A stretch of DNA of 64,000 bases. Origin: Carallia brachiata (taxonomy: Eukaryota > Streptophyta > Magnoliopsida > Malpighiales > Rhizophoraceae). The notes below the pieces were generated by a model that saw only the letters and a program-made list of their open reading frames with translations, was not told the DNA's origin and searched no databases. The stretch is taken from positions 3,217,250 through 3,281,249 of the forward strand of contig JADCRB010000016.1 of the NCBI GenBank assembly GCA_021464245.1. Reading direction: 5' to 3'. Of the stretch, positions 14,260 through 58,639 are shown piece after piece. The first letter of the stretch is position 1; each line of letters opens with the position of its first letter. Both the position numbers and the translations under genes were made by a program.

Positions 14260-14594
14260 TGTCAGGGATTGTGGAATAGAATAGAGGGAGTTAATGGAAG
14301 TCCAGTTGGCAGATTGTGATTGGTCTTCAAGAAATAGGATAGGAACGGATAGAAGTTGTTATCTACGCTGTTAAGAGAATTACTGTTAGTTGTAATTGTT
14401 CATTCATTGGCTACTAGTATCTACGTGTATAAATACAAATTGTAGAGACAACAACAGAAATAACAAAAGATTAAAAATTCCAATACTTTCTCTAAACTCT
14501 CTCTCTCTCTCTCTCTCTTCCTTTCTTCCTATCTCACTCTCAAAATTCTTTTCCCCGATCTCCCATTTTCTTCTCCAAATCAAGGTCCCTGACA
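14260..14594 (+). repeat. 5' LTR of the chromovirus
   Basis: 335 bp from TGTCAGGGATTG to CCCTGACA. A TATA box (GTATAAATAC) lies near 14428-14437, followed by a (CT)n tract. It pairs with 18176-18508. Confidence 0.95.
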
Positions 14595-14596
14595 AG

Positions 14597-14608
14597 TGGT
14601 ATCAGAGC
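14597..14608 (+). other. primer-binding site for initiator tRNA-Met
   Basis: TGGTATCAGAGC begins two bases after the 5' LTR and is the usual complement of the 3' end of initiator tRNA-Met. Confidence 0.95.
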
Positions 14609-14668
14609 AGTCCGGTTCGGTGGCCTGAGGAACGGATCAATCTGGCGAGAAAACCTCGAAGTGTACCC

Positions 14669-15738
14669 ATGCCAAGCACTTCTTCGTCCCCAGTTTCCGA
14701 CGAGATCTTCAAGAAGATCGAAGAACAAGTATCGCTGCTGCAAAACCAGATTAAGGAACAGGAGGTAAGATTTTCTCAGCAAGATTCTAGGTTTTCGCAG
14801 TTAATGGAGTTTTTGCAAGCGAAATTTGGGGCTTTACCTGGCAATGGTAAAGAAGGAGGGCAAAGTGGGTCTGTACCAGTAGCGGAAAGGGGTGTGGGAA
14901 GAGACCATTCTGGTATTCTACCTACCCCAAAGGAATTCGTCACTGTTAATGGCGGAAATTCTGGAGATAAGGGTTGTTCTGCCGATGTGGCTCAATCTTT
15001 GGTCCTAGGGCAACATTACCATACTTTGAGGGCATTAATCCTCGAGATTGGATAGTGAAGTGTAATCGCTATTTTAGATTGAATAATGTGGCTGAACATT
15101 CTAAGGTAGAAGTAGCAGCGATGTATTTGGGGGAAAAACCGGAAGCGTGGTTCTAGGGATGGTTGTTAGATCAAACTGCAGTCACATGGGATAAATTTTC
15201 TCAGGATTTGTGTCGGAGATTTAATGGTGGTAAATTGCTGGGTATCGTGGAAGAATTTAACAAGCTGAACCAAACTGGGAGTGTCTTGGAATATCAAGAG
15301 AAATTTGAAGAATTAAAGTCCCATATGAAGAACTTGAATCCTTTCCTCAATGAGGAATATTTCATGGACAGTTTTGTGAGTGGCTTGAAGGGATCAATTA
15401 AGGCGGCCGTTAAGATGTCTCAACCGAAGGATCTCTTCCATTTGTATGAGTTGGCTCGTTTGCAAGAAGAAGTGGTGGAGGAGTTGTCCAAGCAAGCTAG
15501 ACCACCTAGATCAACGGGATGGATACCGAGTGGTTCCTCTTATCGAAGCCCTATTCCTATGAACAGGCTTCCAAACACATTTTCTGCAGCCAAAAGTGAG
15601 GGAATTAGTAAATCCATACCAGAGCAAAAGATTACAGCAGAAGGAGGACGAAGGTATAATACCTGTTATAGATGTGGGGACAGGTATTTTCCGGGGCATC
15701 AGTGCACAAAAAAACCAGCGTTGCGGTTGATGGTTTAA
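14669..15738 (+). pseudogene. gag: chromovirus gag
   Basis: Gag packages the element RNA. The ATG at 14669 opens a coiled-coil-like N-terminus (IFKKIEEQVSLLQNQIKEQE). A frameshift near 14990-15050 moves the core into another frame (LPYFEGINPRDWI, MYLGEKPEAWF) and a stop lies at 15154-15156. The rest of the gag core is open from 15163 (TWDKFSQDLCRRF, MDSFVSGLKG) to a zinc knuckle of the C-X2-C...PGH-X-C type near 15660-15705. The frame ends at the deletion point, after ALRLMV. Confidence 0.88.
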
Positions 15739-18146: not shown

Positions 18147-18158
18147 GGACAAGGCTCC

Positions 18159-18175
18159 ATTCAGCTGGGGAGTAA
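18159..18175 (+). other. polypurine tract of the chromovirus
   Basis: GCTGGGGAGTAA directly precedes the 3' LTR, at the expected plus-strand priming site. Confidence 0.8.
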
Positions 18176-18508
18176 TGTCAGGGATTGTGGAATAGAATAG
18201 AGGGAGTTAACGGAAGTCCAGTTGGCAGATTGTGATAGGTGTTCAAGAAATAAGATAGGAACGGATAGAAGTTGTTATCTACGCTGTTAAGAGAATTACT
18301 GTTAGTTGTAATTGTTCATTCATTGGCTACTAGTATCTACGTATATAAATACAAATTGTAGAGACAACAACAGAAATAACAAAAGATTAAAAATTCCAAT
18401 ACTTTCTCTAAACTCTCTCTCTCTCTCTCTCTTCCTTTCTTCCTATCTCACTCTCAAAATTCTTCTCCCCGATCTCCCATTTTCTTCTCCAAATCAAGGT
18501 CTCTGACA
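18176..18508 (+). repeat. 3' LTR of the chromovirus
   Basis: 333 bp, TGTCAGGGATTG to TCTCTGACA, nearly identical to 14260-14594, and followed by TGAGC. Confidence 0.95.
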
Positions 18509-22156: not shown

Positions 22157-22260
22157 TTTTGTACCTTCCAATTTTTTCTCCTGTGTAAAAAAAAAAAAAA
22201 AGAGGGTTTGCAAAAAAAATAAAAAAAGGAAAAAAAAAAGAGAAAGAAATTGACACACCC

Positions 22261-24150
22261 ATGGTGTCAAAGAAAAGTACATTAGCCCCCACAAACAAAC
22301 AGGCGATTGCAACCTTACCGGCATCAACTACCATACTTTGGTACACCAGTATAGAAACTGGCGAACGGACAAGATTCCTTGTCTCCCAATCACACCAAAA
22401 TATCAAAATGGAGAATCCGCAACCCACATAGCAGTAAGGTCTCTCACCTGACTCTCTTGCTGAATGAAGAAGTCGACCATCCATCCCAACCGAAGTTGGA
22501 AGCAATGCATCAAATCCTGCACAATATCAAGAACCAACCAATTTTGCCGGAACAAGCATGGAGGAATCAGAAGAGTCTTCTACTCTAGTCTTCTACAGAG
22601 CATCATCTACTAACACCAATGTCGTTGTAGTCATGATCACAAATACAACTAGTACGAAAGATAGGATTATAGAATTGGAAAACAAAATTTCACAGCTGGC
22701 AAAAATTTTGGAGGAAAAAGATCAACAAATTGCCAATCTTAAAAGAAAGGCTCCAATATAAGTTGATCATGAGACCAACGAGGAACGACCATATCCACCT
22801 AGTTTCACCTTATAAGCAACGCCAGCCAACATCTTCACTGTAGAAAAACGTCAAGGTGGTCCCACAGAACTACCGTCTTCAAATTATGTTGCTTTATTAT
22901 TTGTCCAACAATTACAGGACATGATAGTAAATACAATCTGCCTGCAGCAAAGTGCACCATTTCAAGGTCCACAAACGTACATCAAACCGTACACAAGACA
23001 AATTGAAAACTTCAGCATGTTGTTGGGTTGCCAACTGCCCAAACTTCAATAATTCAATGGACGAGATGAACTTAGGCAACATGTTGCCCAGTTTGTTGAA
23101 ACCTGCAATAGCACAGGGTCTCACAGTGTCCTTTTGGCGAAACAGTTTGTCCGTTCACTTAAAGACATAGCCTTCACCTGGTTTATAAACCTCGAACCGG
23201 AATCCATTGATAGTTGGGAATAGCTCCAACATGAGTTTCTCAATAGATTCTTCAGCACTCATCGAATAGTAAGCATAATAGAGCTTATTAACACCAAACA
23301 AAGGAAAAGTGAACTCGTTGTCGAATACATAAACAAATAGCATGCACTCAGCCTAGATTGTAAAGATCGCTTGACAGAGACCTCAGCTATAAAAATGTGC
23401 ATTCAAGGGATGCGTTGGGACTTGTTGTACATCCTACAAGGCATCAAATCTCAAACTTTTGAAGAACTAGCAACTTGGGCCCACGACATTGAGGTAAGCA
23501 TCCAAACTTCACGGGGTAGGGTTCCTTTCTAATTAGACTAGCATAAAAAAATTAGAGAAGTCAAGAAGTGTGACAAACTTGGTAAAGGCAAAGAAGTAAT
23601 GGTTATCAACATCTGACCAATAAGGGTTGCTATTAAAGCAAAAGTAAACCTTCCACCATCAACAAGTCAGCCAAAACAGCAAGAAAATCAAAGGATGGCT
23701 CTACGGGAGTTGAAACAGAAAACGTATGCATTTCCTAACTCTAGCGTTTCAGACATTCTTAATCAACTTTTGAAAGCTAAACTCATAGAACTCCCAGAGT
23801 CCAAGCGACCTAAAGAAAACTATCAGATTAACAATCTGAGATTTTGTAAATATCACTGCATAGTTAGTCATTCGACAGAGAAGTGCTTCATCTTAAAGGA
23901 GCTGATTATGAAACTCAAAAATAAAAGTAAAATCATTTTGGATGGGAAAGACGTGGCCTCAACCAACCAAACTGCTAGCTCTTCAAGTTCATCGTCATGT
24001 AATACTACCCTAAAAGAAATGTCATAGTTCAATATGACGACAAAAAGTGAACAACAAAGGAGGTATCCAAAACTCTTCAAAGTCTTCTTATTGATCCTCA
24101 ATTGCCTTTAGTATTGCAATCATCTAAAACCTTGTGAAACCAGGTCGGCA
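22261..24150 (+). pseudogene. gag: Tat gag, long copy
   Basis: The ATG at 22261 (MVSKKSTLAP) matches the start of the minus-strand copy at 42567. The N-terminal region includes a predicted coiled coil (IIELENKISQLAKILEEKDQQI, about 22665-22745). The core has the Tat patterns FVETCNS, QFVRSLKDIAFTW, LEPESIDSWE and CIQGMRWDLLYILQGI. A zinc-finger-like block (FCKYHCIVSHSTEKCFILKE) lies near 23840-23900. Stops occur near 22430, 23050, 23224, 23338 and 23530, so no full protein can be made. Confidence 0.88.
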
Positions 24151-24189: not shown

Positions 24190-24970
24190 ACACTATTTTA
24201 GCAGATAATTAGATAGAACAAATCTCTACCACATGCTACTCTGCCGTCTCATGCACAGATGAGGATCTTTCGTTAGGCTCCAACCCCACAATTGACCATT
24301 GTATGTGTCAAGATATGGAAAGAGCAAAAGATTGGTCCATCCTTATTGATGATGGCTCAGCAATTAACATCATTCCAAAGTCTGCCATGAAGAACTCAAC
24401 ATCAGCATTGATAAATTATCAAAGAGTCACTTGATGATTCATGACTTTAATCAAGGAGGACAATGAGCAATTGACATGTCCTGACTAGACTGACTATTGG
24501 TGACCATACTTCCAATACTCTATTCCATGTGATTGATACACATACCACATACAAGATATTACTAGGATGCCCTTGTATCCATGGAAATGGGATTGTACTT
24601 TAAAGTTTGCATCTGTGCTTCAAATACTACAAAAATGATGTTCAAAAAGTGAACGCTGACTTAAAGCCATTTGATGATGTCAAATCACATTTGGCAGATG
24701 CAATTTTCTACTCTAACTCAAAAAATCCCGAAATCATTCATTCAAAGATTCCTTTGATTGGGGGCATCTTAAAAAAGGTTGAAGCTGCCATAGATGCTTC
24801 CAATACTCTCCCACAAACTCCAATGGATAAAAAACTACGACAGCCTGCAGAGCTTATCTCACATGAGACTAAATCAACTTTGAGTCCTACTTCAATCCTA
24901 TGCTATGCACTAAAGTCACAATGTCAAGATGGTCAACCTCTTTTCTCTTATTTTACTAATCTTAAATAAA
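24190..24970 (+). pseudogene. pro: Tat aspartic protease region, long copy
   Basis: The active-site motif reads LIDDGSAINIIPKS near 24343-24380, with the catalytic DDGSA intact. A later block, VIDTHTTYKILLGCP...HGNGI, near 24530-24590 matches the C-terminal fold region. A frameshift and stops (near 24435 and 24603) separate it into pieces. The frame 24607-24969 is the spacer that follows protease. Confidence 0.8.
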
Positions 24971-25849
24971 AGGAGCAACACAATAAATTTAAACCGAAAG
25001 AGAATCACATTTTGAAAGAAACACATTCCCTACCGAGACCAAAGGTTGACCCAGTTTTGGCTTCTAAACCACTGAAAGGTTTTGTTAGAACACTTGTGGG
25101 GGCAATCAAATATGGCTCATTTCCAAATAAAAGAGCAGATGAAGGATTGATCCTAATGCATACAAGCTCTTGGCTAAAGTAGGCTATGACTTCTCAAAAT
25201 CCAAACACAATTGTTACACTTCCAACTGAATGCGCCTACGGCACCATTGCTCAATTTTCCAAGTCCCGACCCAAACTAGGCTAACAAAAGAAACCACCTG
25301 TGCAAATTATGTTGAAAAGCAAAAGCCAATCAATTGACTCATGTGCCACTATAGTTACTATCATTAATGAAGAAAGCAAGTCTGACTTGAAGTCAATCCA
25401 GTCAGATGAAGAAGTGGAAGTTAAGTCCTCAACATCTCACGTTACAATAAGTGAGAAGGATGAGTCTGATTCATTAGATAGCAAAATAGAATAGGCTCCA
25501 ACATCTCACGTCACAATAAGTGAGAAGGATGAGTCTAATTCATTAGATAGCAAAATAGAATAGGCTCCTCTAAAACTCAAGGATAGTGGCCAAGCCACCG
25601 TAGATGAACTTAAGGAAGTCAATCTCGACTCTCTAGAAGACCCTCAACCCACTCCTGGATGCTTTGCTCACACCACAAAAAGAGCAAGAATACGTCCAAG
25701 TATTAAGTTAATACAATGATGTATTTGCATGGAGTTACAAGGAAATGCCTAGAATTGACCCTAAGATCGTGGTGCACCATTAGTGTGAAGAAGAGCATCT
25801 GTCTAGTCAAACAACCACAACGATGATTCTGTATAGAGTTTATTTCACA
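24970..25849 (+). pseudogene. acidic linker between protease and reverse transcriptase, with a 69-bp tandem duplication
   Basis: The linker encodes acidic Ser/Glu-rich sequence (DLKSIQSDEEVEVKSS), also present in the minus-strand copy near 55785-56024. About 69 bp (25430-25498, CATCTCACGT...GAATAGGCTCC) are repeated in tandem at 25499-25567 with two changes. The minus-strand copy has a single unit, so this is a private duplication. Confidence 0.7.
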
Positions 25850-26960
25850 AATTGAAGAAGAAGTCAACAAGCTAATCAATGCTGATTTCATCCGAGAAGT
25901 CACTTACCCAATATGGATAGCAAATATAGTCCCAGTAAGAAAGAAGAATGGACAGCTAAGGGTTTGTGTTGATTTTAGAGACCTCAATCGGGCATGCCTA
26001 AAGGATGACTTTCCCTTACTTACAACAGAAATCACAGTCGATGTAACTACTGGCCACGAAGCATTATCCTTCATGGATGGCTCTTTAGGATATAACCAAA
26101 TTAGGATGGCACTAGAAGATGAAGAACTCATGGCATTTCACATACCAAAATGGATATACTGTTGCAAAGTCATGCCGTTTGGGCTAGGGAACGCTGACAC
26201 CACTTATTAGCGTGCCATGCAAAAGATTTTCGATGATATGCTTCACAAGATTCTAGAATGCTACGTGAATGACTTGGTGGTAAACATCAAGGAGCGCAAA
26301 GATCGCTTGGAAGACCTCAAAGTAGTGTTTGAAAGACTCTGCAAGTACCAGCTCAAAATGAACTCACTCAAGTGTGCATTTGGTGTGACATTAGGAAAGT
26401 TTCTTGGATTTGTGGTACACCGCTGTGGCATTGAAGTTGATCAATCAAAGGTTGAAGCAATTCAAAAGATGCTTGAACCCAAAAACCTTCACAAGCTGCG
26501 AACTCTACAAGGAAAATTATCTTACATTCGTCATTTCATCTCTAACTTAGCTGAGAGGTGTCAACCTTTCAATCAGTTGATAAAAAAAAATGTCAACTTT
26601 GAGTGGGACAAAACTTGTAGCAAAGCTTTTGAAAGAATAAAAAAGTACCTTTCAAATCCACTAGTTTTAGTTGCTCCAATTTAAAGAAAGCCTTTGATTC
26701 TTTACATTGCAACACAAGAAAGATCTCTAAGAGCTTTGCTTGCCCAAGAAAATGAGCAAGGAAAGGAAGTTGCCTTATACAACCTAAGTAGAATATTAAA
26801 TGGTCCAGAGTTAAACTACTCGACCATTGAAAAGACGTTTTTAGGACTCTTTTTTGCCATTGAAAAGCTGAAGCATTACATACAAGCTCACATGATTCTC
26901 CTCGTTGCTGTAGCTGATCCTATTAAGTACATCTTGTCTAGAGTAGTCTTATAAGGACGA
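25850..26960 (+). pseudogene. pol: Tat reverse transcriptase and first RNase H, long copy
   Basis: Visible blocks in order: EEEVNKLINADFIREV, VCVDFRDLNRACLKDDFPL, SFMDGSLGYNQI, VMPFGLGNA, then the catalytic box as YVNDLVV in place of YVDDLVV. There is a stop just after NADTTY (26210). The thumb continues in KMNSLKCAFGV and GKFLGFVV. RNase H of the Ty3 type follows from about 26690 (YIATQERSLRALLAQENEQGKE, LNYSTIEKTFLGLFFAI). Stops at 26683 and 26952 break the frame. The first catalytic Asp of reverse transcriptase is lost, so this copy would be inactive even without the stops. Confidence 0.9.
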
Positions 26961-26999
26961 CTTGCTAAGTGAGATGTTATACTACAAAGCTATGACATT

Positions 27000-27570
27000 G
27001 TCTACGTGCCTCATAAAGTAGTCAAAGGGCAAGCTTTGGCAAATTTCCTTGCAGATTATCCTGCCTCGTCTAATTGGAAATTTACAGATGATCTCTCAAA
27101 CGAAGAAGTTTTTTACATTGAAACACTGGCACAATGGATGATGTTCTTTGATGGTGCTAGAAGGCATGATAGTGCTAGTGTAGGTGTAGTATTTGTCACC
27201 CCTCAATGACAAGTGCTACCATATGCTATCATTTTTGGTGAATTGTACTCAAATAATGTCGCCGAATACTAGGAGTTAATTATTGCTCTCCAAATGGCTA
27301 TTGACATGAAGATTCCAACAATAGAACTCTATGGAGACTCACAACTCATCATCAACCAACTTGTTGGGTTGTATGATGGGAAGAAACAATATCTAGCACC
27401 CTACTATTGACATACACATTAGTTGATAGATGAATTTAAAAGTATCATCTCAAAACATGTGCCTCATCTAGAAAACTCTCAGGTATACGCATTGGCTAAT
27501 TTGGCTACATCCCTTGCTAAGTCAGAAATCCAGACTACAGTAGTTACTGTGTGTCAAAAGTGAGTTGTAC
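27000..27570 (+). pseudogene. Tat second (archaeal-type) RNase H, long copy
   Basis: A separate RNase H fold lies between the Ty3-type RNase H and integrase. It starts WMMFFDGARRHDSASVGVVF (catalytic D in FDGA), then ELYSNNVAEY, ELYGDSQLIINQLVG (catalytic D in GDS) and a final ALANLATSLA segment. Stops occur near 27207, 27270, 27410 and 27560. This domain position defines the Tat lineage within Ty3/gypsy; in this family it was gained in addition to the original RNase H. Confidence 0.88.
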
Positions 27571-27574
27571 CATA

Positions 27575-28880
27575 GAATGATGATGAAGACAATGAAACAA
27601 TTAATGCAATATTCATACGTATTACTAAGGATGAAGATTGGCATCAACCTATCATTGACTACTTGCAGCACGGAAAGCTATCTAAAGATTGTAGTCACAA
27701 GGCTAAAATATGACATCGAGCATCCCACTTCATATACTTCAAAGACACTTTGTATCGAAGATCTTTTGATGGGGTTTTCCTACGTTGTCTAAGCAATGAA
27801 GAGGCAAAACTAGCTCTTGAAGAAGAACATTTCGGTGTTTGTGGTGGACATCAATTAGGATCCAAACTGCACATTAAACTCAAAAGGATGGGGTACTACT
27901 AGCCGACAATGGTATGTGATGCATCAAAATTTGCCAAAATTTCCCAAGCATGCCAGCTTCATGCCAATTATATGCATCAACTACCAGAGCCGCCACATCA
28001 AACCAAATCATCTTGGCCATTTGAAGCTTGGGGCCTTGATTTAGTAAGGCTTTTGTTGAAGTCCTCCTTGGGTCATCTTTATATTAGGGTAGCAGCAGAT
28101 TACTTCTCAAAATGGGCTGAAGCAATCTCACTTAAAGAAGTAAAGATGGAACATGCGATCAATTTCATCCAGACACATTTAATCTATTATTATGGAGTTC
28201 CTCGATTCATCATTACTAATTACAGGAAGCAATTCTACAATAGTTTGGTGGATAAACTATGCAAAAAGTTCAAGTTTAAGTAGTACAAGTCATCCATGTA
28301 TAATGTCCCAGCTAATGGTTTGGCTGAAGCATTTAATAAGCCCTCATGTAATTTATTGCGAAAGGTAGTGCCCAAATCAAAGAGGGATCGACATAACAAA
28401 ATTCTTGAAGCATTGTGGGCATATTGTACAACTTATCGCACACAAACTCAAGTGACACTACATGCCCTTGTCTACAGTGTTGAGGCTATACTATCATTAG
28501 AAATGCAGTTCTCGTCTCTCTGTATGGCTATCCAAGAAGGCCTCACCCAGGAGGAAAATGCACAATTGTGATTGGATGAATTAGAATCCCATGATGAAAA
28601 AAGGCTTGAAGCACAAAAACTTGAGTGCTATAAGGCGCGACTCACCATGTATTCTACTGTAAAGTCTGCCCACGATCATTTGAAATTGGGGACTTGGTTC
28701 TCACAATGTGACAACCTATCAACTTGAAGCATTGACCTAGTCACAAGCTCACTTCCAAATGGGATGGATTGTACTTGGTATAAGAAGCCTGCACAACTAA
28801 CGCATAAATGTTGTCGGACAAAGAAGGCAACCGAATTGGCCCAATCAATAGTAAGTTTCTTAAATGTTACTATGTTCAGG
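27575..28880 (+). pseudogene. Tat integrase, long copy
   Basis: The zinc-binding region lies around 27830-27980 (HFGVCGGHQLG, then ASKFAKISQACQLHANYMHQ). The core shows WGLDLVR, ADYFSKWAEAISL and NGLAEAFNK. The second catalytic Asp position reads ITNYRKQF where the family normally has ITDNG, so it is lost. The C-terminal domain (28560-28880) keeps ECYKARL, SSLPNGMDCTWYKK and the closing SFLNVTMFR. Several stops and frameshifts. The distal C-terminus is the segment retained in the deletion derivative at 32336-32640. Confidence 0.87.
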
Positions 28881-29162: not shown

Positions 29163-29790
29163 TCAACCCTAAACTCCTGCCCCGCACGAGTATAAAAGGC
29201 AAAAAGTTTAACAACTAAGAAGACTCCTACATCGCACAAGTATAAAAGGCAACAACTCAAACTCCTACCTCACATGGGTATAAAAGACGAAAAGTTCAAT
29301 GATAAAACCAAAGCAAACTCCTGTCTCACACGAGTACAAAAGGCAAAAAGTTCAACAACAAAGAAGACTTCTGCCCCGCATAAGTATAAAAGTTGAGAAC
29401 TCAGACTCTTGTGTCACATGAGTATAAAAGATGACAACTCAACAACAAAAGTAGACTCCTAGCCCATAAGAGTATAAAAACGAGATGACGACAACAACCC
29501 AATAAGACTCCTACCTTGCACGAGTATAAAAGGCAATAGTTCAACAACAAAAGTAGACTCGTAGCTCGCACGAGTATAAAAGGTGAGACGACAACAACAA
29601 CAAAATCGAACTCCTTATCCACAAGAGTATAAAAGACGAGACGACAACAACAACAAAAGCAGACTCCTAGCCTACAAAAGTATAAAAGGCGAGACAGCAA
29701 CAACAACAACAAAAGCAGACTCCTAGCCTGTAAGAGTATAAAAGGTAAGATGACACCAACAAAATAAATCTGATGACCCACATGAGTATA
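29163..29790 (+). repeat. tandem array with TATAAAAG in most units (long Tat copy)
   Basis: About 12 units of roughly 50 bp follow the pattern ACTCCT, about 12 bases, GAGTATAAAAGGCGAGA, then an ACAACAACA tail. The motif TATAAAAG or a one-base variant recurs in nearly every unit, and the last unit reads GTATAAACTATGAACGG. It lies about 130 bp upstream of the WOX start codon. TATAAAAG is a strong match to the plant TATA-box consensus. Confidence 0.9.
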
Positions 29791-29920: not shown

Positions 29921-30607
29921 ATGAGACCAGCCACAAGGTATTAGAGCATGGGAAATAAGAGGTTACCACGCACTAGGTGGCAACCAAGTCCAACGCAATT
30001 GCAATCTTGGAGAATTTCTTCCGTAATGATAATACTCTTCTCAACTCATCACAGATCTTCCAACTCACTACATGATTATGGTTGTATAGGGCAATGAGAC
30101 AAAGAGTGTATATTTCTAGTTTCAAAATTGTAGAAGTAGGGAGAGAACAATAGAGAGAGCTGCTGCTTCCATAGCACAACATGTTTCTAACACTGCCATT
30201 GTCCTTATTGGAGATCTCACCAGTGCTGGTTAGTCCTCAAATGAGGTCACGAGTCCTAGTTTTGCCACTGCAATAGTCCCTCAAGGCTATTTCAACTAGA
30301 ACCACAGCTTGCTGTGCTACACGTACTGGTTCTCAAGGTTTTACGCCTTATCATATGAAACATTGGGTGCTAGCTAGGGATTCAACCTTTATGGGTACTT
30401 TAACCTGAGAAGAAACCTTACACCAAGGGAAGCTACTCCAACAGTACCTTTTCTCTCTCTCCAAACTACTTAAGTAGGACTCTTCCTCTCTTTCTAGTCT
30501 ACCCTAGTGACGTCAATAGGCGAGCAAATTCCAACAGTGACGACACCAGCAGGCCAAATGAGGACTTGATTGACTTAGAGCTCCGCCTTGAGCTCTGTAA
30601 GAACTGA
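29921..30607 (+). pseudogene. captured WUSCHEL-related homeobox (WOX) gene, long Tat copy
   Basis: WOX proteins are nuclear homeodomain regulators of plant stem cells. The frame starts at the ATG at 29921 and enters the homeodomain with TRWQPSPTQLQ. It shifts frame and continues ILENFF, SSQ and QLT. The middle of the homeodomain is badly decayed here. The C-terminus is clear: TLPLFLVYPSDVN (WUS-box, T-L-P-L-F) followed by LIDLELRLEL (EAR-like L-x-L-x-L) just before the stop at 30605-30607. WUS-box plus EAR together point to the WUS/WOX5/WOX7 type. It lies between the TATA array and the small frame. Not functional as it stands. Confidence 0.85.
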
Positions 30608-31534: not shown

Positions 31535-31547
31535 GAAGTGGGGGCAT
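31535..31547 (+). other. polypurine tract, long Tat copy
   Basis: GAAGTGGGGGCAT directly before the LTR start TGTAAAA at 31549. Confidence 0.85.
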
Positions 31548-31548
31548 T

Positions 31549-31675
31549 TGTAAAAAAAAAAAAAAAGGAGAAGCCACGTTGAAAACTCAAAGAAAGCCCT
31601 GCATCAATGCCACAAAAGCACGCAATGGAAATATCAATTTCCATGTGGGTGGTATTGTGCATTCTCCCGAAAAAA
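31549..31675 (+). repeat. first part of the 3' LTR, truncated
   Basis: Begins TGTAAAA and matches the 5' LTR of this copy through AATATCAATTTCCATGTGGG and GTGCATTCTCC. It then passes abruptly into gag leader sequence, so the remainder of this LTR, the next primer-binding site and part of the leader are deleted. Confidence 0.75.
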
Positions 31676-31693
31676 GAAAAAGCAAGAAACAGT

Positions 31694-32335
31694 GCATCAA
31701 TGGCACCAAGGAAGAGTAAGACCGCCCCACTAGGAAAAAGGCGATTGCTTCATCGTCTACATCAACTATTATACCTAGGTACGCAAGTCCAGAAACTCTC
31801 GCACAGACATGGTTCCTCACTGCCCAACATATTAAAATAGAGCATTTGCAGTTAACACAACAACAAGATTTCTCACTGGACTCTCTCCCGAATGGACAAG
31901 TTGACTATCTATCTCAACTGAAGTTGGGGACAATGCGTCAAAACTCGTACAATAGCAAAAATTGACCTATTATGCTAAAACAAGTCATGAGAAATCAGAA
32001 GAACCCTCCACTACAGTCTTCTATGGAGCATTATCTAACAACGTCGACGTCACTAGCACGAAAGATATGATTGTAGAATTGGAAAGTATAATTTCACGGC
32101 TAATCAAAGGTTTGGAGGAAATAGATCAACGAATTGCTGACCTCAAAGAAAAAGGTCCATTAAAAGTTGAGGCTTAGACTAGCAAGGAGCAATCATATCT
32201 ACCTGGTTTCACTCCAAAAACAACTTTAGCCAACATTTTCAAAGTAGAAAAACAATAAAACGGTCCCACGTAGTTGCCACCTTCAAATTCTATCGCTTTG
32301 TTATCTGTCCAACAGTTACAGGACATGATAGCCAA
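31694..32335 (+). pseudogene. gag: gag N-terminal fragment of the deletion derivative
   Basis: The ATG at 31694 (MAPRKSKTAPL) matches the gag start MAPNKSMTAS at 42567. A coiled coil (MIVELESIISRLIKGLEEIDQRI) near 32068-32136 matches the long copy. After QLQDMIAND the sequence passes into the integrase end at about 32336. Confidence 0.75.
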
Positions 32336-33065: not shown

Positions 33066-33557
33066 ATGAGGCCTCAGGACTAGGGAGAGTATAGGTCACC
33101 ATGCACTAGATGACAACCAAGTCTGTCGCAAGTGCAAATCTTGGAAGAGCACTTCCCTAACAATGGAGGCTTTTGTCTTAATTCATCACAGCTCTCCCAA
33201 CTTGCTTCGTGACTATAGTTGTATGGGGCAGTCGAAACAAGAAATGTGTATTTTTGATTTCAAACAGGATAAGTAAGGAGAGAGCAATGCAGAGAGCTGC
33301 TGTTTCTGCAGCACAGCCTATTTCTACCGCCACAACCGTTCCCATAATAGATCTCACTAGTATTACTTCGTCCTCAAATGAAGTTATGGGTCCAAGCTCC
33401 ACCACTACAATGGTCCCTCAAGGCTATTTGGAGCAAAGCTATAATCTGCTGCAATACACGTACTAGTTATAAAGGTTTTACTCTCTATCATACACAGCCT
33501 CAAGCTCCAGCCAAGGGTTCATCTTTTACGGGTACTTCAATCCTGGAGGAACTTTCT
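33066..33557 (+). pseudogene. captured WOX gene, copy with the best-kept middle, C-terminus cut
   Basis: The ATG at 33066 leads into TR-stop-QPSLSQVQILEEHF, then NSSQLSQLAS, LYGAVETRNVYF-stop-FQ and KERAMQRAAVSAAQP. In this copy the YGAVETRNVYF stretch most resembles the third-helix region of WOX homeodomains. After the homeodomain the frame is open (ATTVPIIDLTSITSSSNEV, MVPQGYLEQSYNLLQYTY). The WUS-box and EAR end are missing because the copy is cut at the inverted junction near 33557. Confidence 0.85.
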
Positions 33558-34745: not shown

Positions 34746-35408
34746 TCAGCCGACCTCGTGGGACTCGAGACATAGCTCCAAGTCAATCAGTCCTTGTTTG
34801 GTGGCTGATGACGTCAACGCTGCTGAAACTTTCTGCCGATTGACGTTGCTGGGGTGTACTTGAAAAAGAGGCAAAGTTTCGCTAGAGTGGCTCCTTCCTA
34901 GTGCAAGGTTTTCTGTTGGATTGAAGTACCCATAAGGGATGAACCCCTGGTAGGAGCTTAAGGCTTCGTATGATAAGGAGTAAAATCTCCAGAACCAGTA
35001 TGTGTATTACAGTAGACTAGAACTTTGCTCTAAATAGCCTTGAGGGACCATTGCAGTGGTGGAACTTGGACCCCTAACTTCATTTCAGAACGAAGCAATA
35101 CTAGCGAGGTCAACCATGGGAACAGTTGCAGTAGTAGAAACAGGTTGTACTGTAGAAACAACAGCTTTCTGTGTTGCTCTCTCCTTACTTCCCCAACTTT
35201 GACACCAAAAATACACATTTTTCGTTTTCATTGCTGCGTACTGCCGTAGTCGTGAAGTAAGCTGGGAGAGCTGCGATGAATTAGGACAAGTACCTCCATT
35301 ATTGCGGAAGTGCTCCTCCAAGATTTGCAGTTACGCTGGGCTTGGTTGCCATCTAGTGCATGGTAATATATCATTTCCCTTGTCCTGAGGTTCTACAACT
35401 GGTTCCAT
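34746..35408 (-). pseudogene. captured WOX gene, most complete copy (220 codons, three stops)
   Basis: The frame from the ATG at 35408 to the stop at 34746 stays in one register, broken only by stops after QPSPA, after IASF and before YTYW. The homeodomain (about residues 17-80) aligns without gaps to WOX homeodomains: TRWQPSPA, LQILEEHFRNNGG, SQLTSRLRQY, KTKNVYFWCQ, then SKERATQK. The invariant Phe/Asn of WFQN are changed here (WCQS). Then a Ser/Thr-rich linker, GFIPYGYFN, the WUS-box ETLPLFQVHPSN and the EAR-like IDLELCLE near the end. Length and order fit the WUS-clade WOX proteins. The homeobox is continuous, without an intron. It sits between the TATA array and the small frame. Confidence 0.92.
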
Positions 35409-35519: not shown

Positions 35520-36560
35520 CGTTCACGGTTTATACTTGTGCGGGTTAGAAGTTTTGGGCTTGATCTTGATTTTTGACCTTTTTGAGCCGTTCACAGTTCA
35601 TACTCATGTTGCCAGGAGTTTTGTTTTGCTGTTGCCGTTTGGCCTTTTATACTCTTGCGGGTTAGGAGTCTGCTTTTGTTGTTGTTGCTATCTCGTCCTT
35701 TATACTTTTGTGGGTTAAGAGTATGTTTTGCTGTTGCCGTCTAGCCTTTTATACTCTTGCATGTAAGGAGCATGCTTTGCTACTGCCGTCTTTCGTTTTA
35801 TACTCGTGCAGGCAAGGAGTATGCTTTGCTATTGCCGTCTCATCTTTTATACTCGTGCGGGTAAGGAGTATGCTTTGCTGTTGCCGTGTCGCATTTTATA
35901 CTCGTACGGGCAAAGAGTATGCTTTCCTATTGCCGTTGCCGTTTTGCCTTTTATACTCTTGCGGGTAAGGAGTATACTTTTGTTATTGTACTTTTTGCCT
36001 TTTATACTCATGAGAGGCAGGAGTTTGCATTAGTTGTTCGCCTTTTATACTTGTGCGAGGCAAGAGTCTGCTTTACTTGTTTGCCTTTTGTACTCATGCG
36101 GGCGAGGAGTCTGCTTTGTTGTTGCTGTCTTCCCTTTTATACTCGTGCGAGTAAGGAGTATGCTTTTGTTGTTGTACTTTTTACCTTTTATACTCATGCA
36201 AGATAGGAGTTTGGTTTAGTTGTTTGCGTTTTATACTCGTACAAGGCAAGAGTTTGCTCTGTTGTTGTTGCCATCTCGCTTTTATACTCGCGCGGGTAAG
36301 GAGCATGCCTTTTTGGTTATGTTGTCGCTTTTTATACTCATGCGATTAAAGAGTCTACTTTTGTTGTTGTTACTGTCTCGCTTTTTATATTTGGGCAGGT
36401 AGAGAGTCTAGTTTTGTTGTTGAACTTTTCGCCTTTTATACTCGTGCAAGGTAAGAGCTTGTTTTTTTTTTTGTTGTTGTGTTGTCACCATTTATACTCG
36501 TGTGAGGCAGGAGTTTGTTTTTACTTTTGAGCTTTTCACAGTTTATACTTGTACGAGGTT
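35520..36560 (-). repeat. TATA-containing tandem array, minus-strand copy 1
   Basis: About 20 units; on the plus strand each reads GCCTTTTATACTCGTGCGGG followed by AGGAGT and a TTGTTGTTG spacer. On the element's own strand that is TATAAAAGGC. It is the longest array in the window and lies directly upstream of the WOX start at 35408. Confidence 0.92.
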
Positions 36561-37249: not shown

Positions 37250-37902
37250 TGTAAGAAAAATTATTCACAAAATATTTAAATAAATGAAGAATTAGAATTG
37301 TAGAGTTATAATCAATGAATTATATAGACAACATAGAACAAAAAATAAATTACATCATGTTGGAATAAATATAAATTGAGAGGAAAGGATAACATATCTG
37401 AAGCGTGCAAAAGCACTGTCCTTAAGGATAGAGTCGCTCCCCCGCAGACAAGTAAGCACAGTGCATCGGGCTCTGGCGGCTATCCTCCAAGGATACGACA
37501 GATCTTCTCACTAGTGTGCACTTCACAAGTGAGGCAACAGAAACAACATACCTCTTGATTGTTGGTGGAAAATTGCCTCTCAAGGAAGACAAGATGAGTC
37601 ATATTTATACTAGTCGAGTGTTAATAGCACATAAAGTGTATTAACAGCAGGAATAAATCCCAACGGTCATAAACGGCTAATGCCATAATGACTACCACAT
37701 AAAGTGTATTAACAGCAAGAATAAATCCCAACGGTCATAAACGGCTAATGCCATAATGACTAGCACATAAAGTGTATTAACAACAAGAATAAATTCAACG
37801 GTTATAAACGGCTAATGCCATAATGACTAACAACAGACATATAACGACTAATTTCTATTTAATAGGAATTAAGCCTTTTAAAATACACTTTAATTTCCAA
37901 CA
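37250..37902 (-). repeat. 3' LTR (left) of the Copia-like element
   Basis: Plus-strand ends TGTAAGAAAA and TTTCCAACA. It contains three tandem units of about 68 bp (37626-37830, GCACATAAAGTGTATTAACA...). Confidence 0.88.
37626..37830. repeat. 68-bp tandem repeat in the Copia-like LTR
   Basis: Three units of about 68 bp, each starting near CACATAAAGTGTATTAACA and ending CTAATGCCATAATGAC. The same three-unit array lies at 40772-40985 in the other LTR. Confidence 0.92.
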
Positions 37903-40373: not shown

Positions 40374-41050
40374 TGTCAGAAAAATTATTCACAAAATATT
40401 TAAATAAATAAAGAATTAGAATTGTAGAGTTATAATCAATGAATAATACAGACAACATAGAACAAAAAATAAATTATATCATGTTGGAATAAATATAAAT
40501 TGAGAGGAAAGGATAACATATCTGAAGCGTGCAAAAGCATTATCCTTAAGGATAGAGTCGCGCCCCCGCAGACAAGTAATCACAGTGCATCGGGCTCTGG
40601 CGGCTATCCTCCCAGGATACGACAGAACTTCTCACTAGTGTGCACTTCACAAGTGAGGCAACAGAAACAACATATCTGTTGATTAACCCAGCCTTATGCC
40701 TTAGATTGTTGGTGGAAAATTGCCTCTCAAAGAAGACAAGATGAGTCCTATTTATACTAGCCGAGTGTTAATAGCACATAAAGTGTATTAACAGCAGGAA
40801 TAAATCCCAACAGTCATAAACAGCTAATGCCATAATGACTAGCACATAAAGTGTATTAACAGCAAGAATAAATTCCAACGATCATAAACGTCTAATGTCA
40901 TAATGATTAGCACATAAAGTGTGTTAACAGCAAGAATAAATCTCAACGGTTATAAACGGCTAATGCCATAATGACTAACAACGGACATATACTGGCTAAT
41001 TTCTATTTAATAGGAATTAAGCCTTTTAAAATACACTTTAATTTGCAACA
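40374..41050 (-). repeat. 5' LTR (right) of the Copia-like element
   Basis: Plus-strand ends TGTCAGAAAA and TTTGCAACA. Same order of motifs as the left LTR, with about 20 extra bases (AACCCAGCCTTATGCCTTAG) near 40684. Confidence 0.88.
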
Positions 41051-43348: not shown

Positions 43349-44239
43349 TGAATCTGTAAATTTTGAGCCTTAAAACAATTAGGCTTCAAAAATACAATTT
43401 CAAATTACAAATAAAAAATTTCGAGTTTTTGTGGTGTCAATCTCTGTGTAGAGCCTTTGATTAATGCTCCTTTGTGATTTCATCAAGGGCTACGTAAGTT
43501 TGATTTTGAACGAAAGAAATAAATTGTTTAGGTTGACCTTGAAAGAAAGAAATGAATTCTACTAAGAGCCGAAACTTGACCTCAGGTAAATACCTTAACT
43601 CTGGTAAGAGCCGTAGAGGCTTGATCTCAGTCAGAATGGCTTGACTCCAATGATGGCCGTAAGGGCTTTATCTCAGACGAATTTACTTCACTCCTCTAAG
43701 GGCCATAGGAGCTTGATCTCAGGCAGATGTTGAATATTTTAATATTTTGAGTTTTTTATCTGGTAGATCCAACTCAGTGGCATTCTAAGAGTATACACCC
43801 AAAATATTAAGATTATAAGTTTGTAGTGGGTATGTTTAGTAGTTTGGACTTTTGATCTAGAAGATCCACCTCAGTGGCGTCCATAAAGCATACACAAAAT
43901 ATAGTAAACGAGAAGAGGAGATCAAAGAAGAAAGTTTTGTAAACTTATTTTTGCTCTCATCGGTGTGCACTTCAAGGCTTGGTTCATTGTCTATATTCAT
44001 TACGTATTTATAGGTAACAAACCAAGGAAGAGGACAAATTCCTCTTTTTTCTTTTTCGTCGTCTTCACATCGGGGGCCATTCGTTTATTTTTCTTTCCAT
44101 CTGCCAACTTTGAACAATGCACAACACCAACCAAACATTAATTGGTATGGGTTGGCAATTGGCTTGCAAAGTCAAGCCAATTGGCTAATTGTCGACCATT
44201 CCTTTTCTTTTCTTTTTTCTTTGTTTTTTTTTCTTTACA
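43349..44239 (-). repeat. LTR shared between minus-strand copies 1 and 2
   Basis: 891 bp from TGTAAAG (44239) after the polypurine tract (44241-44256) to the family LTR end at 43349. The 47-bp-type units lie around 43560-43720. A head-to-tail chain with single LTRs between units is typical of unequal LTR recombination. Confidence 0.82.
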
Positions 44240-44708
44240 AATGCCCCCAATTCAAGGCTTGGTGAGGTAGAATTTTGGGACGTTATCTGAACCCAGTCTT
44301 GAAGTCCAGCTTGAAGGTTGAGATGTTTTGATAAACATTGAACTTGAAGTATCTGATTCCGACTAATCTAATTGATGTTAAACTTGAAAGTTCACAAAAG
44401 ATATTTTATAGAACTTGAAGTTCTATGGTTTAGGTAAGGATGATCTAGTAAATAGAGAACTTGAACCTCCTCCTAGAAAAGGTCTAGTACCATAGAATTT
44501 CAAGGCCAGCGCATAGAGAGACAAGCGATAATTATCACTCCTCTGTCTATTGTCGCATAAGGAGAGCAGTTGGAACTTCCTTGTCTGTCACCTCATCTGT
44601 GAACCCATAAGGGTGATACAACTTCTCTACACGTTGTAATAGATGCGAGATAAAGAAAGTGGTTAGAACTTCATCGACTATGACATCGATGGCCTCAAAG
44701 GTTGAGAT

Positions 44709-44822: not shown

Positions 44823-44981
44823 CTTCTTTCTAGCCATCTTATCTCTTTAGAAAGAAAGAAGAGCTAAGGGATGAGTTTTGTGACTTGAGAATGCATGAAA
44901 TATATACACATTAGAAGCTACTTTTTTATTTTTTTGAAAAGTAAAAAACAAAAGGATACGCTGAATATGGTGGAGTCCTCC

Positions 44982-45442
44982 CTGGCTAGAGCTTGACGCT
45001 CGATATGACAGAGAGTAAAACCTCCAGAACCAGTATGTGTATTGCAGTAAATTATAACTTTACTCAAAATAGCCTTCAGGGACCATTGCAGTGGTGGAGC
45101 TTGGACCCGTAACTTCATTTGAGGACGAAGCAATACTGGTGAGATCTATCATAGGAACAGCTGCGGTGAAAGAAATAGGTTGTGCTGCAGAAACAGTAGC
45201 TCTCTGTGTTGCTCTATCCTTACTTCTCTAGTTCTAAAACTAGAAATGCACATTTTTCATTTTGACTACTCCATACAGTCGTAGTTGTGAAGTAGGTTGG
45301 GAGAGCTGTGATGAATTAGGACAAGTACCTCAATTGTTGTGGAAGTGCGCCTCCAAGATTTGCAGTTGCACTGGACTTGGTTGCCATTTAGTGCACAGTG
45401 ACCTATCTTTTTCTAGTCTTGAGGTTCTACAACTGGTTCCAT
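44982..45442 (-). pseudogene. captured WOX gene, minus-strand copy 2, C-terminus deleted
   Basis: The start at 45442 and the homeodomain region (about 45390-45240) are recognisable by alignment with 35408-34746. The linker (SSNEVTGPSSTTAMVP) is also kept. The WUS-box and EAR motif are missing: the sequence passes from the linker near 44990 directly to the GGAGTCCTCC stretch that normally follows the stop codon. Confidence 0.75.
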
Positions 45443-45552: not shown

Positions 45553-46030
45553 CTGTTCACAGTTTATACTGATGTAGGCTAAAAGTTTTGTTTTGCTGTT
45601 GTCGTCTCACCTTTTATACTTTTGCATTCTAGGAGTCGACTTTTATTGTTGTTGCTGTCTCACCTTTTATGCTCTTATAGGCTAAGAGTATGCTTTGCTG
45701 TTGCCGACTCGCTTTATATACACGTGCGGGTAAGGAGTATGCTTTCCTGTTGCCGTCACGCCTTTTATACACGTGTAAGCAAGGAGTATGCTTTGCTGTT
45801 GCAGTCTCGCCTTTTATACTTGTGCGGGCAAGGAGTATGCTTTACTATTGCCGTTTCGCTTTTTATACTCGTGCGGGTAAGAAGTATGCTTTGTTGTTGC
45901 TGTTTTGCCTTTTACACTCATGCGGGCAAAGAGTAAGCTTTTGTTGTTGTACTTTTCGCTTTTTATACTTGTGCAGGCAAGGAGTTTGCTTTTGTTGTTT
46001 TACTTTTCATTTTTTATACTTGGGCGAGGT
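45553..46030 (-). repeat. TATA-containing tandem array, minus-strand copy 2
   Basis: About nine units with CTTTTATACTCGTGCGGG-type motifs on the plus strand, upstream of the WOX start at 45442. Confidence 0.9.
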
Positions 46031-46877: not shown

Positions 46878-47851
46878 TGTGACTGTAAATTTTGAGCCTT
46901 AAATAGGTAGGATTCGAAAATACAAATTAAAAATAAAAATTTTAAATTTTTGTAGGGTCGATCTCTATGTGAATCTTTCGATCAATGCTCCTTTGCGATT
47001 TTGTCAAGGACCGCATGAACTTAATCTTTGAACAAAAGAAATAAATTCCATAGCTTGACCTTGAACGAAAGAAATAAATTCCACTAAGGGTCGTAGTTTG
47101 ATCTCAGGTGAATGTCTTAACTCCAGTGAGGGCTGTAGAGGCTTGATCTCTGTTGGATTGGCTTGACTCCGGTGAGGGCTGTAGAGGCTTGATCTCTGTT
47201 GGATTGGCTTGACTCCGGTGAGGGTGTAGAGGCTTGATTTCAGGTAGACTGGTTTGACTCCGGCAAGGGCTGCAGGGGCATGATATCAGACAGAATGGCT
47301 TGACTCCTTTAAGAGCCGTAGGGGCTTGATCTTAGACGAATATTTAATATTTTAATATTTTGAGTTTTTAATCCGGTAGATCCAACTTAGTGGCAACTAG
47401 AAAGCATACACCTAAAATATTAAGATTATAAGTTTGTAATGGATATGTATAGTATTTTGGACTTTTGATCTAAAAGATCCACCTTTGTAGCGTCTAGAGA
47501 GCATACGCAAAAATACTAAACGAGAAGAGAAGATAAGAGAGCAAAGTTTTGTAAACTTATTTTTGCTCTCTTCAATGTGCACTTCAAGGCTTAGTTGATT
47601 GCCCATATTCATTGCCTATTTATAGGCAATGAACTAGAGAAGAGAACAAATTCCTCTTTTTTCTTTTTATTTGTCTTCACATGGAGGCCATTTGTTTTTT
47701 TTTTTTTTTTGTCCGTTAGCCAACTTTGAACAATGCACAACACCAACCAAACATTAATTGGTGCGGGTTGGCAATTGGCTTGCAATGTCAAGCCAATTGT
47801 CAACCACTCCTTTTCTTTTTCTTTTTTTTTCCCCTTTCTTTTGTGTTTACA
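46878..47851 (-). repeat. LTR shared between minus-strand copies 2 and 3
   Basis: 974 bp from TGTAAAC (47851) to the family end at 46878, with the polypurine tract on the outside (47853-47868) and a degenerate primer site on the inside. 47-bp-type units lie at 47090-47330, including one exact unit duplication (47120-47215). Confidence 0.85.
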
Positions 47852-48232
47852 AATGCCCTCATATCAAGGCTTGGCGTGGCGGAACTTTGGGACGTGATCT
47901 GAACTGAGTCTTGAAGTCCAGCTTGAAGCTTGAGATGTCTTGACAAACATTGAATTTGAAGTATTTAACTCCGACTAGTCCAACTAATGTTGAATTTGAG
48001 AGCTCACAAAGGATATATTATAGAACTCGAAGTTCCATGATTTAGGTGAGGATGATCCAGTAAATAGAGAACTTGAACCTCCTCCTAGAGAAGGTCCAAT
48101 ACCATAGAACTTTAAGCCCAGTGCATAGAGAGACGAGTTGTTGTTATCACTCCTCTATTTATTGTGACATAAGGAGAGTAGTTGGAACTTCCTTGTCTGT
48201 CGTCACATCCGAGAACCCATAAAGGTGATCAC

Positions 48233-48689: not shown

Positions 48690-49355
48690 TCAGCTGACCT
48701 CACGGGGCTTGAGTTGTAGCTCCAAGTCAATCGAGTCCACGTTTGGTGGGTTGATGACGTCGATGCTATTGGAACTTTTTAGCCGATTGAATTCACCAAT
48801 GTATACTGGAAAAAGAGACAAAATCTCACCAAAGTGGTTCCCTCCTGGCGCAAGGTTTCTTCTCGGATTGAAGTATGCATGAGGGATGAACCCCTGGCTG
48901 GAGCTTGAGGCTCTGTATGATAGGGATTAAAACCTCCAGAACCAGTATATGTATTGTAGTAAACTATAGCTTTGCTCGAAATAGCCTTGAGGGACTATTG
49001 CAGTGGTGGGACTTGGACCCGTAACTTCATTTGAGGATAAAGCAATACTGGTGAGATCCACCATGGGAATAGTTGCAGTGGTAGAAATAAGCTGTGCTGT
49101 AGAAACAACAGCTCTATGTGTTGCTTTTTCCTTACTTCTCTAGTTCTAAAACTAGAAATACACATTTTTCATTTTGACTGCTCCGTACAGCGATAGTCGT
49201 GAAGTAAGTAGGGAGAGTTGTGATGAATTAGGACAAGTACCTCTATTGATGGGAAAGTGCTCCTCCAAGATTTGTAGTTGCGCTAGACTTGGTTGCTATT
49301 TAGTGCGTGGTGACATATCATGTTCTTGGTCCTAAGGTTCTGCAACTAGTTCCAT
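48690..49355 (-). pseudogene. captured WOX gene, minus-strand copy 3, C-terminus well kept
   Basis: The start is at 49355 and the stop at 48690, about 222 codons. The homeodomain region lies at about 49305-49115 and is interrupted. The C-terminal half is clean: AYFNPRRNLAPGG, then EILSLFPVY (WUS-box with L-S-L-F-P) and VDSIDLELQLKPREVS before the stop, with the EAR-like LELQL. This copy shows that the normal C-terminus ends a few residues after the EAR motif. Confidence 0.86.
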
Positions 49356-50681: not shown

Positions 50682-50794
50682 AATGCCCCCACTTCAAGAT
50701 TAGGTGAGGAGAAATTTTGGGACGCAATCCGAACCGAGTCTTGAAGTCCAACTTGAAGTTTGAGTTGTCTTGACAAACATTGAATTCCACTGAG

Positions 50795-51690
50795 TATAAA
50801 AGGTGAAAAATTCAACAACAGAATCAAACTCTTATCTCACATGAGTATAAAAGGCAAGCAACTCAGCAGCAAATTTAGACTCCTGTTTTGCACGATTATA
50901 AAAGGCAATAAGTTAAACAACAAAAGCAAACTCCTACCTCGTACGAGTATAAAAGGAAAAAAACTCAGAAGTAAAACCAGACTCCTGCTTTGCATGAGTA
51001 TAAAAGGTGAAAAGTTTAACAATAGAATTAGACTCTTACCTCGCATGAGTATAAAAGGCAAACAACTCAGTAGCAAATTTTAGAATCTTGCCTCACAAGA
51101 ATATAAAAGGCAAGATAGAAACAACAACAAAACTAGACTCCTTTTCCGCACGAGTATAAAAGATGAGACGACAATAGTAAAGCATACTCCTTCACCCACA
51201 TGAGTATAAAAGGTGAGATGGTAACAACAAAGTATTCTCCTTTCTCGCACGAGTATAAAATGTGAGACAACAACAACAACAAAACCATACTCCTTACCCG
51301 TTTAAGTATAAAAGGCGAGAAAGCAACAACAAGAAAGGTATACTCCTTACCTGCATGAGTATAAAAGGTGGGATAGAAATATCAAAGCATATTCCTCACT
51401 CGCACGAATATAAAAGGCGAGACAACGACAACAAAGCATACTCCTTGCCTACACAAGTATAAAAGGCGAGACAGCAATAGCAAAGCATAATCCTTACTCG
51501 CATGAGTATAAAAGGCGAGATGGCAATAGCAAAGTAGACTCCTAGCCTGCAAGAGTATGAAAGGCGAGACAGCAATAACAAAACAAGACTCTTGGCCCAC
51601 ATGAGTATAAACTGTGAACGGTCCAAAAACCAAAAATCAAAACCCAATCCAAAACTTCTAACCTGTATGAGTATAAACTGTAAACGGCCA
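50795..51690 (+). repeat. TATA-containing tandem array, plus-strand copy after an inverted junction
   Basis: About 17 units; GAGTATAAAAGGCGAGA recurs roughly every 45-55 bp with CAACAACAA spacers. It ends with two GTATAAACTGTRAACGG units. It begins right after the minus-strand 3'-region piece at 50790, so the strand switches here. Confidence 0.92.
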
Positions 51691-51807: not shown

Positions 51808-52509
51808 ATAGAACCAGCTGCAAAACCCCAAAACTAGGAAAAAATAGGTCACCAGGAACTTGATGGCAACCAAGTTTAGCGCAGCTGCAAATCTTGGAGG
51901 AGCACTTCCGCAACAATGGAGGTACTTGCCCTAATTCATCACAGGTCTCCCAACTTACTTCATGACTGTGGGTGTACAAAGTAGTCGGAACAAAAAGTAT
52001 GTATTTCTAGTTTCAGAGCCAGAGAATTAAGAAGAGAGCAACATAGTGAGTTGCTATTTATGCAACACAACATGTTTCTACCATTGCCGCTATTTCCATG
52101 GTAGATGTCACCAGTATTGATTCATCCTCAAATAAAGTTGTGGGTATAAGCTCCACCACTGCAATGGTCCCTCAAGGCTATTTGGACCAAAGCTATAACT
52201 TGCTGCAATACATATACTGGCTCCAGAGGTTTTACTCCTTATCATGTAGAGCTTCAAGCTCTGGCTAGGGATTCATCCCTTATGGGTACTTTAATTTGGG
52301 AGGAAACCTTGCACCAGGAAGTAGCTACTCTGACAAGACTCTCTCTTTTTTCAGTATGCCCTAGCGACATCAATCAGCAAGAAAGTTCCAATAATATCAA
52401 CGTCGCCAACCAGTTGAACGAGGACTCGATTGACTCGGAGCTACGCCTCGAGTCCCTTGAGGTTGGCCAATCAGGAAAAGTTGCAACAACTTTTGCAACA
52501 CGATATTAA
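51808..52509 (+). pseudogene. captured WOX gene, plus-strand copy between inverted junctions
   Basis: The start codon is changed to ATA (51808). The homeodomain is readable in one frame with stops: WQPSLAQLQILEEHFRNNGG, NSSQVSQLTS, then MYF-stop-FQ. The linker is open (SMVDVTSIDSSSNKV, MVPQGYLDQSYNLLQYIYW). The WUS-box reads KTLSFFSVCPSDIN and the EAR-like motif SIDSELRLESLEVGQ. The frame then runs on to 52509, because the usual stop is lost. ILEEHFRNNGG is identical to 34746-35408. Confidence 0.88.
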
Positions 52510-58515: not shown

Positions 58516-58639
58516 AAATGCCCCCACTCAAGGCTTGGTGAGGAACAACCTTAGGACGTGATCCAAACCGAGTCTTGAAGGGAGTGGGTTGAACTTCATC
58601 GACCATGACATCAATGGCATGGTTGGAACTTATTCGATC

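Follow-up and report, generated by a model that had tools for sequence, protein, structure and literature searches.

A family of Ty3/gypsy retrotransposons of the Tat lineage in the genome of Carallia brachiata carries a WUSCHEL-type homeobox gene, and we think it fairly probable that this is a captured, spliced host WUSCHEL that the family has kept as an accessory gene with a predicted repressor role. The gene was first noticed as a frame in the 64-kb stretch of DNA analysed here (the window), in a preliminary description made from its letters alone. The stronger part of the finding is the open frame in recent copies, which was beyond the reach of such a reader.

Results

Decayed WUSCHEL-type copies in the window

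The frame first described, copy C (34746–35408, minus strand), is a WUS-type gene with a homeodomain, the WUS-box ETLPLF and the EAR-like LELCLE. All motifs claimed for it (TRWQPSP, LQILEEHFRNNGG, RLRQY, KNVYFWCQ, ETLPLF and LELCLE) read back from the sequence, and its homeodomain, described as aligning to the WOX type without gaps, indeed does so with WUSCHEL 6ry3 (E 2.4e-11). In this search among solved structures, which the translation entered with X in place of stops, STENOFOLIA 6wig matched at E 2.3e-11 with one gap. Copy C is, however, a pseudogene with three in-frame stops, and the Pfam Homeodomain score of this decayed copy, 18.8 bits, lies under the cut-off of 22.9. The seven further copies that had been reported are all DNA homologues of copy C (blastn pieces 73–83% identical), and the window holds eight mutually related WUSCHEL-type (WOX) sequences. 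Copies A (29921–30592, plus strand), E (48690–49355, minus), F (51808–52467, plus), G (59042–59704, minus) and H (62347–62993, minus) are WUS-type genes, with the start codon lost in F. The remaining two are truncated: copy B (33066–33544, plus) lacks the C-terminal part, and copy D (44980–45442, minus) lacks the WUS-box and EAR region.

When proteins of young elements were compared with the window, gag, the gag–RT interval, RT to the second RNase H, and integrase were found upstream of copy A only, which makes element A (plus strand) the one window element keeping gag-to-integrase matches. Its gag (22846–23406) is 69% identical to that of the young element L011. The following gag–RT stretch (24490–25149) is 58% identical to young L010 and is assigned to the protease by position only, with no Pfam match for protease. 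RT, RNase H and a second RNase H-like domain occupy 26031–27786 (76% identity to young element L009 over 519 residues and 49% over the last 67), followed by integrase in two pieces of 74% and 66% identity (27873–28873). Upstream of the WOX gene lies a tandem array of ~53-bp units with TATAAAAGG (29440–29762), and downstream of it the polypurine tract with the first 3' LTR bases (31536–31555). A position downstream of pol, claimed for the WOX genes in general, is thus shown in the window for copy A alone, copy C having no adjoining RT or integrase match. A repeat at 22229–22927 and 31669–32331 was considered as the LTR pair of element A for dating and rejected, as it overlaps the gag matches. 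Between the protease-region and RT matches of this element there is also a 69-bp near-exact tandem duplication (25430–25568, 97% match).

The motif of polypurine tract and LTR start, AAGTGGGGGCATTTGTAAAC, was found at seven places in the window when at most three mismatches were allowed, whereas 0.03 would be expected. Five of these junctions lie downstream of WOX copies, namely A, D (44233–44252), E (47845–47864), G (58510–58529) and H (61517–61536), the last four on the minus strand. The placement of the genes before a polypurine tract was therefore borne out for these five copies but not for B, C and F at this mismatch limit.

Several other features were observed in the window. Two direct repeats (37250–37902 and 40374–41050), 92% identical and with three 68-bp units in each, are probably the LTRs of an insertion nested in the copy-C element. 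Another Ty3/gypsy element (14260–18508, plus strand) has 335-bp direct repeats that are 97.3% identical and retains gag, RNase H and integrase pieces, with an RT region 35% identical to that of the WOX-carrying family. At 4181–5155 (minus strand), 325 codons stay open and include a DNA-binding domain of the GeBP-like kind (Pfam PF04504, E 1.4e-23); this frame is probably an ordinary host transcription factor gene. A frame at 9671–10690 (minus strand) has a zinc knuckle and DUF4283 and is of a kind known from plant LINE-type elements.

Young elements belong to the Tat lineage

LTRs were present in all four young elements examined, two of which (L011 and L012) also have matching 5-bp target-site duplications (TSDs). 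The full element at L012 (with L032) is 10,470 bp long; its two LTRs, of 826 and 847 bp, are separated by a K2P distance of 0.016, and its TSD is TGTCC. That at L011 (with L031) has a length of 10,133 bp, an LTR K2P of 0.055 and the TSD CGAGT. L009 and L010 have LTRs, at K2P distances of 0.023 (computed from part of the LTR) and 0.088, and no matching TSD. In a young element the 5' LTR is followed by TTGGCACGC...GTGGGAC, in the place of the primer-binding site. The 3' LTR of L012 starts with several palindromic TGAATTCA units, which are absent from the printed LTR starts of L009, L010 and L011.

The order of Pfam domains in L009 (3442–5217) is RVT_1, RT_RNaseH and RVT_3, with rve in the next frame; gag is likewise recognized by Pfam in the young elements. 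From its kind and its place between RNase H and integrase, we read RVT_3 as the additional RNase H (aRH). According to the text of a survey of plant elements, an aRH besides the RH is a hallmark of Tat elements, and in Ogre and Retand it separates RH from IN (PMC6317226); the succession of RT, RNase H, RVT_3 and integrase is thus the Tat arrangement of angiosperm elements (PMC6317226). Together with the LTRs, the polypurine tract and the TSD in two of four elements, this second RNase H-like domain agrees with the Tat assignment of the preliminary description; our classification of the WOX-carrying elements is made at the level of the lineage. None of the four young elements has an uninterrupted gag-pol frame among the frames listed. 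In the young elements examined, the WOX frame is separate, located after integrase and before the 3' LTR in sense orientation, and it ends ~950–970 bp upstream of the 3' LTR in L011 and L012.

The encoded protein is of the WUSCHEL type

The element WOX protein has 207 residues and comprises a WUS-type homeodomain, the WUS-box ETLPLFP, an acidic stretch and LDLELHLGPR at its end; we take ETLPLFP and the LELHL-type motifs to be what is called the WUS-box and EAR-like motif. The homeodomain of a young copy scores 47 bits with Pfam PF00046, well over the cut-off, and aligns gap-free to WUSCHEL 6ry3 (E 2.9e-18) and with a one-residue gap to STENOFOLIA (E 7.1e-16). Its loop has the length found in WUS, one residue longer than in STENOFOLIA, giving 64 columns compared with 63 in four host genes of other WOX kinds (the labels WOX5-, WOX9/11- and WOX13-like being our own). 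A homeodomain of WUS length was found in all 182 proteins listed by the searches with the element protein and with the host gene L016. L009 has both ETLPLFP and LDLELHL, and the same or close variants occur in the other complete copies, while incomplete copies lack both; L012, which has the cleanest LTR pair, has a scrambled WUS-box.

Database relatives are in line with the claim that the best matches would be WOX proteins. The 120 listed of 419 relatives are plant homeobox proteins, most of them named WUSCHEL and the rest unnamed or hypothetical homeobox proteins, plus one odd label. Identity reaches 53% over part of the query among the matches listed, and none of these 120 is named as an element protein. 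No relatives were confirmed in IMG/VR viral contigs.

A probable single capture from spliced RNA

The same genome contains host WOX genes (L013, L016, L017, L023, L024 and L039), of which L016 and L017 are WUS genes. According to frames and splice signals, both have an uninterrupted homeobox and two introns between homeobox and WUS-box. The earlier argument for capture from spliced RNA was that the homeobox of WUS-clade genes is usually split by an intron, which fails for both WUS genes found here. The conclusion nevertheless holds by another route, because neither of the two host introns is present in the element frame. With its exons joined, L016 encodes ~308 residues, and its best matches among those listed are Erythroxylum novogranatense proteins (64–66% identity), which would suggest a host within or close to Erythroxylaceae/Rhizophoraceae. 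The two host WUS genes share with the element gene the homeodomain length of 64 columns and the WUS-box ETLPLFP, and L016 also the LELxL-type C-terminus; they differ from it in having two introns and, for L016, ~308 rather than 207 residues. Between host and element homeodomains, about one-third of first and second codon positions differ and 0.6 of third positions.

The 11 element rows tested, of which eight are young and three come from the window, cluster together in the homeodomain tree with support of 100/98 and 100/99, as expected from the earlier proposal of a single capture before amplification. The tree, built on 64 columns, does not place this group inside WUS: its union with WUS has a support of 40/4, and a union with WOX13/WOX9 is not rejected (p-AU 0.53).

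Open frames and constraint across the genome

The 337.5-Mb genome holding the window contains many copies. A Pfam homeodomain search, in which the best 150 of 1347 candidates were scored, gave many hits of 183 bp with near-equal scores, and 60 fetched stretches comprised 47 element WOX frames, 9 host homeobox genes and 4 upstream element pieces. With the 207-residue protein as query, the best 150 of 2317 candidates all had at least 85% identity. Among these best-scoring copies, which are no random sample, 115 are stop-free in the matched part (counted by hand; some of these matches fall short of full length), and in 23 the match has the top score and extends over all 207 residues. The open stretch between stops spans 229 codons in most top copies and is longer in some. 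When the 3'-UTR DNA of L009 alone was used, the 40 scored of 1291 candidates all belonged to the youngest subfamily (at least 97% identity), and a stop-free WOX match lies beside 33 of these 40 loci (paired by hand; some matches are incomplete on one side).

At first, second and third codon positions, window and young copies differed by 0.303/0.318/0.354 (homeodomain) and by 0.392/0.349/0.342 (WOX tail), compared with 0.156/0.116/0.342 in RT-RH-aRH and 0.196/0.126/0.436 in integrase; gag (0.168/0.226/0.350) falls between WOX and pol. Silent divergence is of one order across the genes and replacement divergence is greatest in the WOX gene, which changes much faster than RT and integrase.

We determined pN/pS among 17 young copies, consisting of L009 and 16 stop-free copies that we picked, mostly from the lower ranks of the 150, a choice that lowers pN in all blocks. 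The homeodomain gave 0.33 (0.19–0.58 by bootstrap over codons) and the N-terminus 0.38. Values for the EAR block, the WUS-box (seven codons) and the linker were 0.18, 0.54 and 0.78, and the whole tail gave 0.63 (0.43–0.97, an interval overlapping that of the homeodomain). The eight window copies differ about equally over the three codon positions and have a pN/pS of 0.63 in homeodomain and tail alike, which is inside the wrong-frame range of 0.57–0.98 and thus gives no sign of constraint among them. Since the intervals overlap and decay alone gives 0.63, constraint is likely for the homeodomain and the EAR motif, and the remaining blocks are without such a sign. Another codon analysis used copies selected for their homeodomain score and covered 22 of the 47 element loci, those in which the start or the EAR pattern was missing being excluded; its pN/pS values (0.16 in the homeodomain and 0.79 in the tail) were set aside as biased by that choice.

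We also simulated neutral change at 0.145 substitutions per site, the estimate for the young lineage since the subfamily split; the transition bias and the indel rate were assumptions. The probability of no stop was 0.04, and that of neither stop nor frameshift ~0.002; under this model, it is unlikely that the 207-codon frame would have stayed open by chance.

A conserved TATA segment upstream of the WOX frame

TATAAA is located 94–136 bp before the start in all 13 tabulated copies (6 from the window and 7 young). In the 40-base segment surrounding it, window and young copies share 82% identity, compared with 62–75% in nine other segments, and this short segment is 77% identical among the window copies themselves; it is the best-conserved stretch compared. 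The TATA unit recurs, mostly every 44–53 bp, in L041 as well as in the window copies. The repeat search delimited an array of ~49-bp TATA-containing units upstream of the WOX gene in copy C (35625–36455, minus strand) and further TATA-containing arrays for copies D (45592–45992, minus), F (50787–51611, plus) and G (59894–60485, minus), as well as arrays of a similar unit for copy H (63174–63648, minus), TATA positions being tabulated for other copies and not for H. Tandem repeats in non-coding parts are known for large elements of the superclade, as the text of the survey describes (PMC6317226). An internal promoter may fairly be inferred upstream of the WOX frame.

The protein could also act on the element itself. 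We counted motifs that we take to be of WUS type in three LTRs, one 3' UTR and one upstream stretch, and these showed no clear enrichment; the largest excess was that of TTAATSS in one LTR (2 compared with 0.43). Action on the element itself thus gains little support from these counts. The altered element homeodomain may, however, read other DNA sites than the motifs tried.

Discussion

We propose that a Tat-lineage Ty3/gypsy element would have picked up a host WUSCHEL mRNA, without introns, between integrase and polypurine tract, and that this capture would precede the parting of the old (window) and young subfamilies. The family may have kept the WUS gene as a separate accessory gene, an eORF-3'F in the terms of Neumann et al. 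The predicted protein would be made from its own internal promoter, enter the nucleus and bind WUS-type DNA sites, with WUS-box and EAR recruiting TOPLESS-type co-repressors. The element would then be favoured in shoot-meristem cells, from where new insertions could reach the germ line. That the family has domesticated a stem-cell regulator in this sense, with a WUSCHEL-like repressor from an internal TATA promoter shifting meristem cells to favour the spread of the element, is a tentative idea that we regard as rather doubtful at present.

The main rival to the accessory-gene reading is that WUS was captured once as a passenger, useless to the element, and is open only because one open master amplified lately. 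Much of what we observed on constraint fits such a passenger: the pooled tail pN/pS of 0.63 equals that of the decayed window copies, codon positions are alike between the subfamilies, the gene has changed faster than RT and integrase, and one sequence is common to many young copies, with 23 of the 150 best-scoring ones at full identity. A useless frame, however, would have had a neutral chance of ~0.04 of remaining stop-free since the subfamily split, or 0.002 if frameshifts are considered, and less since the capture. Moreover, homeodomain, WUS-box and EAR persist in young copies, with homeodomain and EAR among the blocks of lowest pN/pS, and we therefore judge a mere passenger to be fairly unlikely.

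Alternatively, the protein might tune the transcription of its own element via the LTR or the internal promoter, with no action on the host cell. The TATA segment upstream, which is best conserved and whose units are tandemly multiplied in window copies, would suit this role, yet none of the WUS-type motifs tried showed clear enrichment in the three LTRs, the 3' UTR or the upstream stretch; we consider such self-regulation possible at best. Host WOX genes do exist in the genome, and the copies might in principle stem from several independent captures or from a host WOX cluster with inserted elements. This seems highly improbable given that the 11 element rows fall into one group (100/98, 100/99), that integrase and 3' LTR flank the WOX frame in the young elements examined, and that window and young copies have upstream sequence in common; host WOX genes with inserted elements were rejected on the LTRs, the TSDs and the common position. 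An accessory gene derived from one spliced host WUSCHEL thus remains the reading that we favour.

Compared with the Tat eORF-3'F as described in the text of Neumann et al. 2019 (PMC6317226), the elements reported here are alike in the aRH between RH and IN, in the extra sense-strand frame downstream of pol and in the non-coding tandem repeats, but differ in that their cargo is a recognisable WUSCHEL protein. The same text characterizes the extra frames of the superclade as frequent and highly divergent, with a function that is 'rather speculative' (PMC6317226). That survey considered eORFs from 250 codons upwards and excluded those located within tandem repeats (PMC6317226), and the 207-codon gene (229 between stops in most top copies) therefore lies below its limit. 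A similar case of an extra ORF with a host-like domain is the AlkB m6A demethylase of Phalaenopsis Ty3/gypsy elements, which concerns another cargo and another host and for which demethylase activity was shown in vitro, according to its main text (PMC9289625). In the accompanying screen of 121 angiosperm genomes, 15 extra domains passed the filter, including B3 and YgdH; its main text uses none of the words homeobox, homeodomain and WUSCHEL (PMC9289625).

The preliminary description knew of no WOX-carrying LTR family, and we likewise found none among the titles and abstract openings listed. What appears to be new is the WUSCHEL cargo; that Tat elements can have extra frames and that gypsy elements can carry host domains was known before. 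Capture of meristem genes by elements is a possible pattern worth looking for. LONELY GUY acts in shoot meristems. The YgdH domain, as in LONELY GUY proteins, is reported in the main text of the same screen for Citrus gypsy elements (PMC9289625). In the present family, a cargo with a well-known normal role and a frame open in more than 100 copies allows predictions on expression, binding and meristem effect. Acute transforming retroviruses carry captured cell-fate genes. They resemble the elements described here as retroelements with a spliced, altered host cell-fate gene, and differ in that here a plant LTR element has carried the gene for long, with an effect on the host cell that is so far only proposed. 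If the family has truly domesticated a stem-cell regulator, it would be the equivalent in plants of such retroviruses, with the difference that the gene is stably carried.
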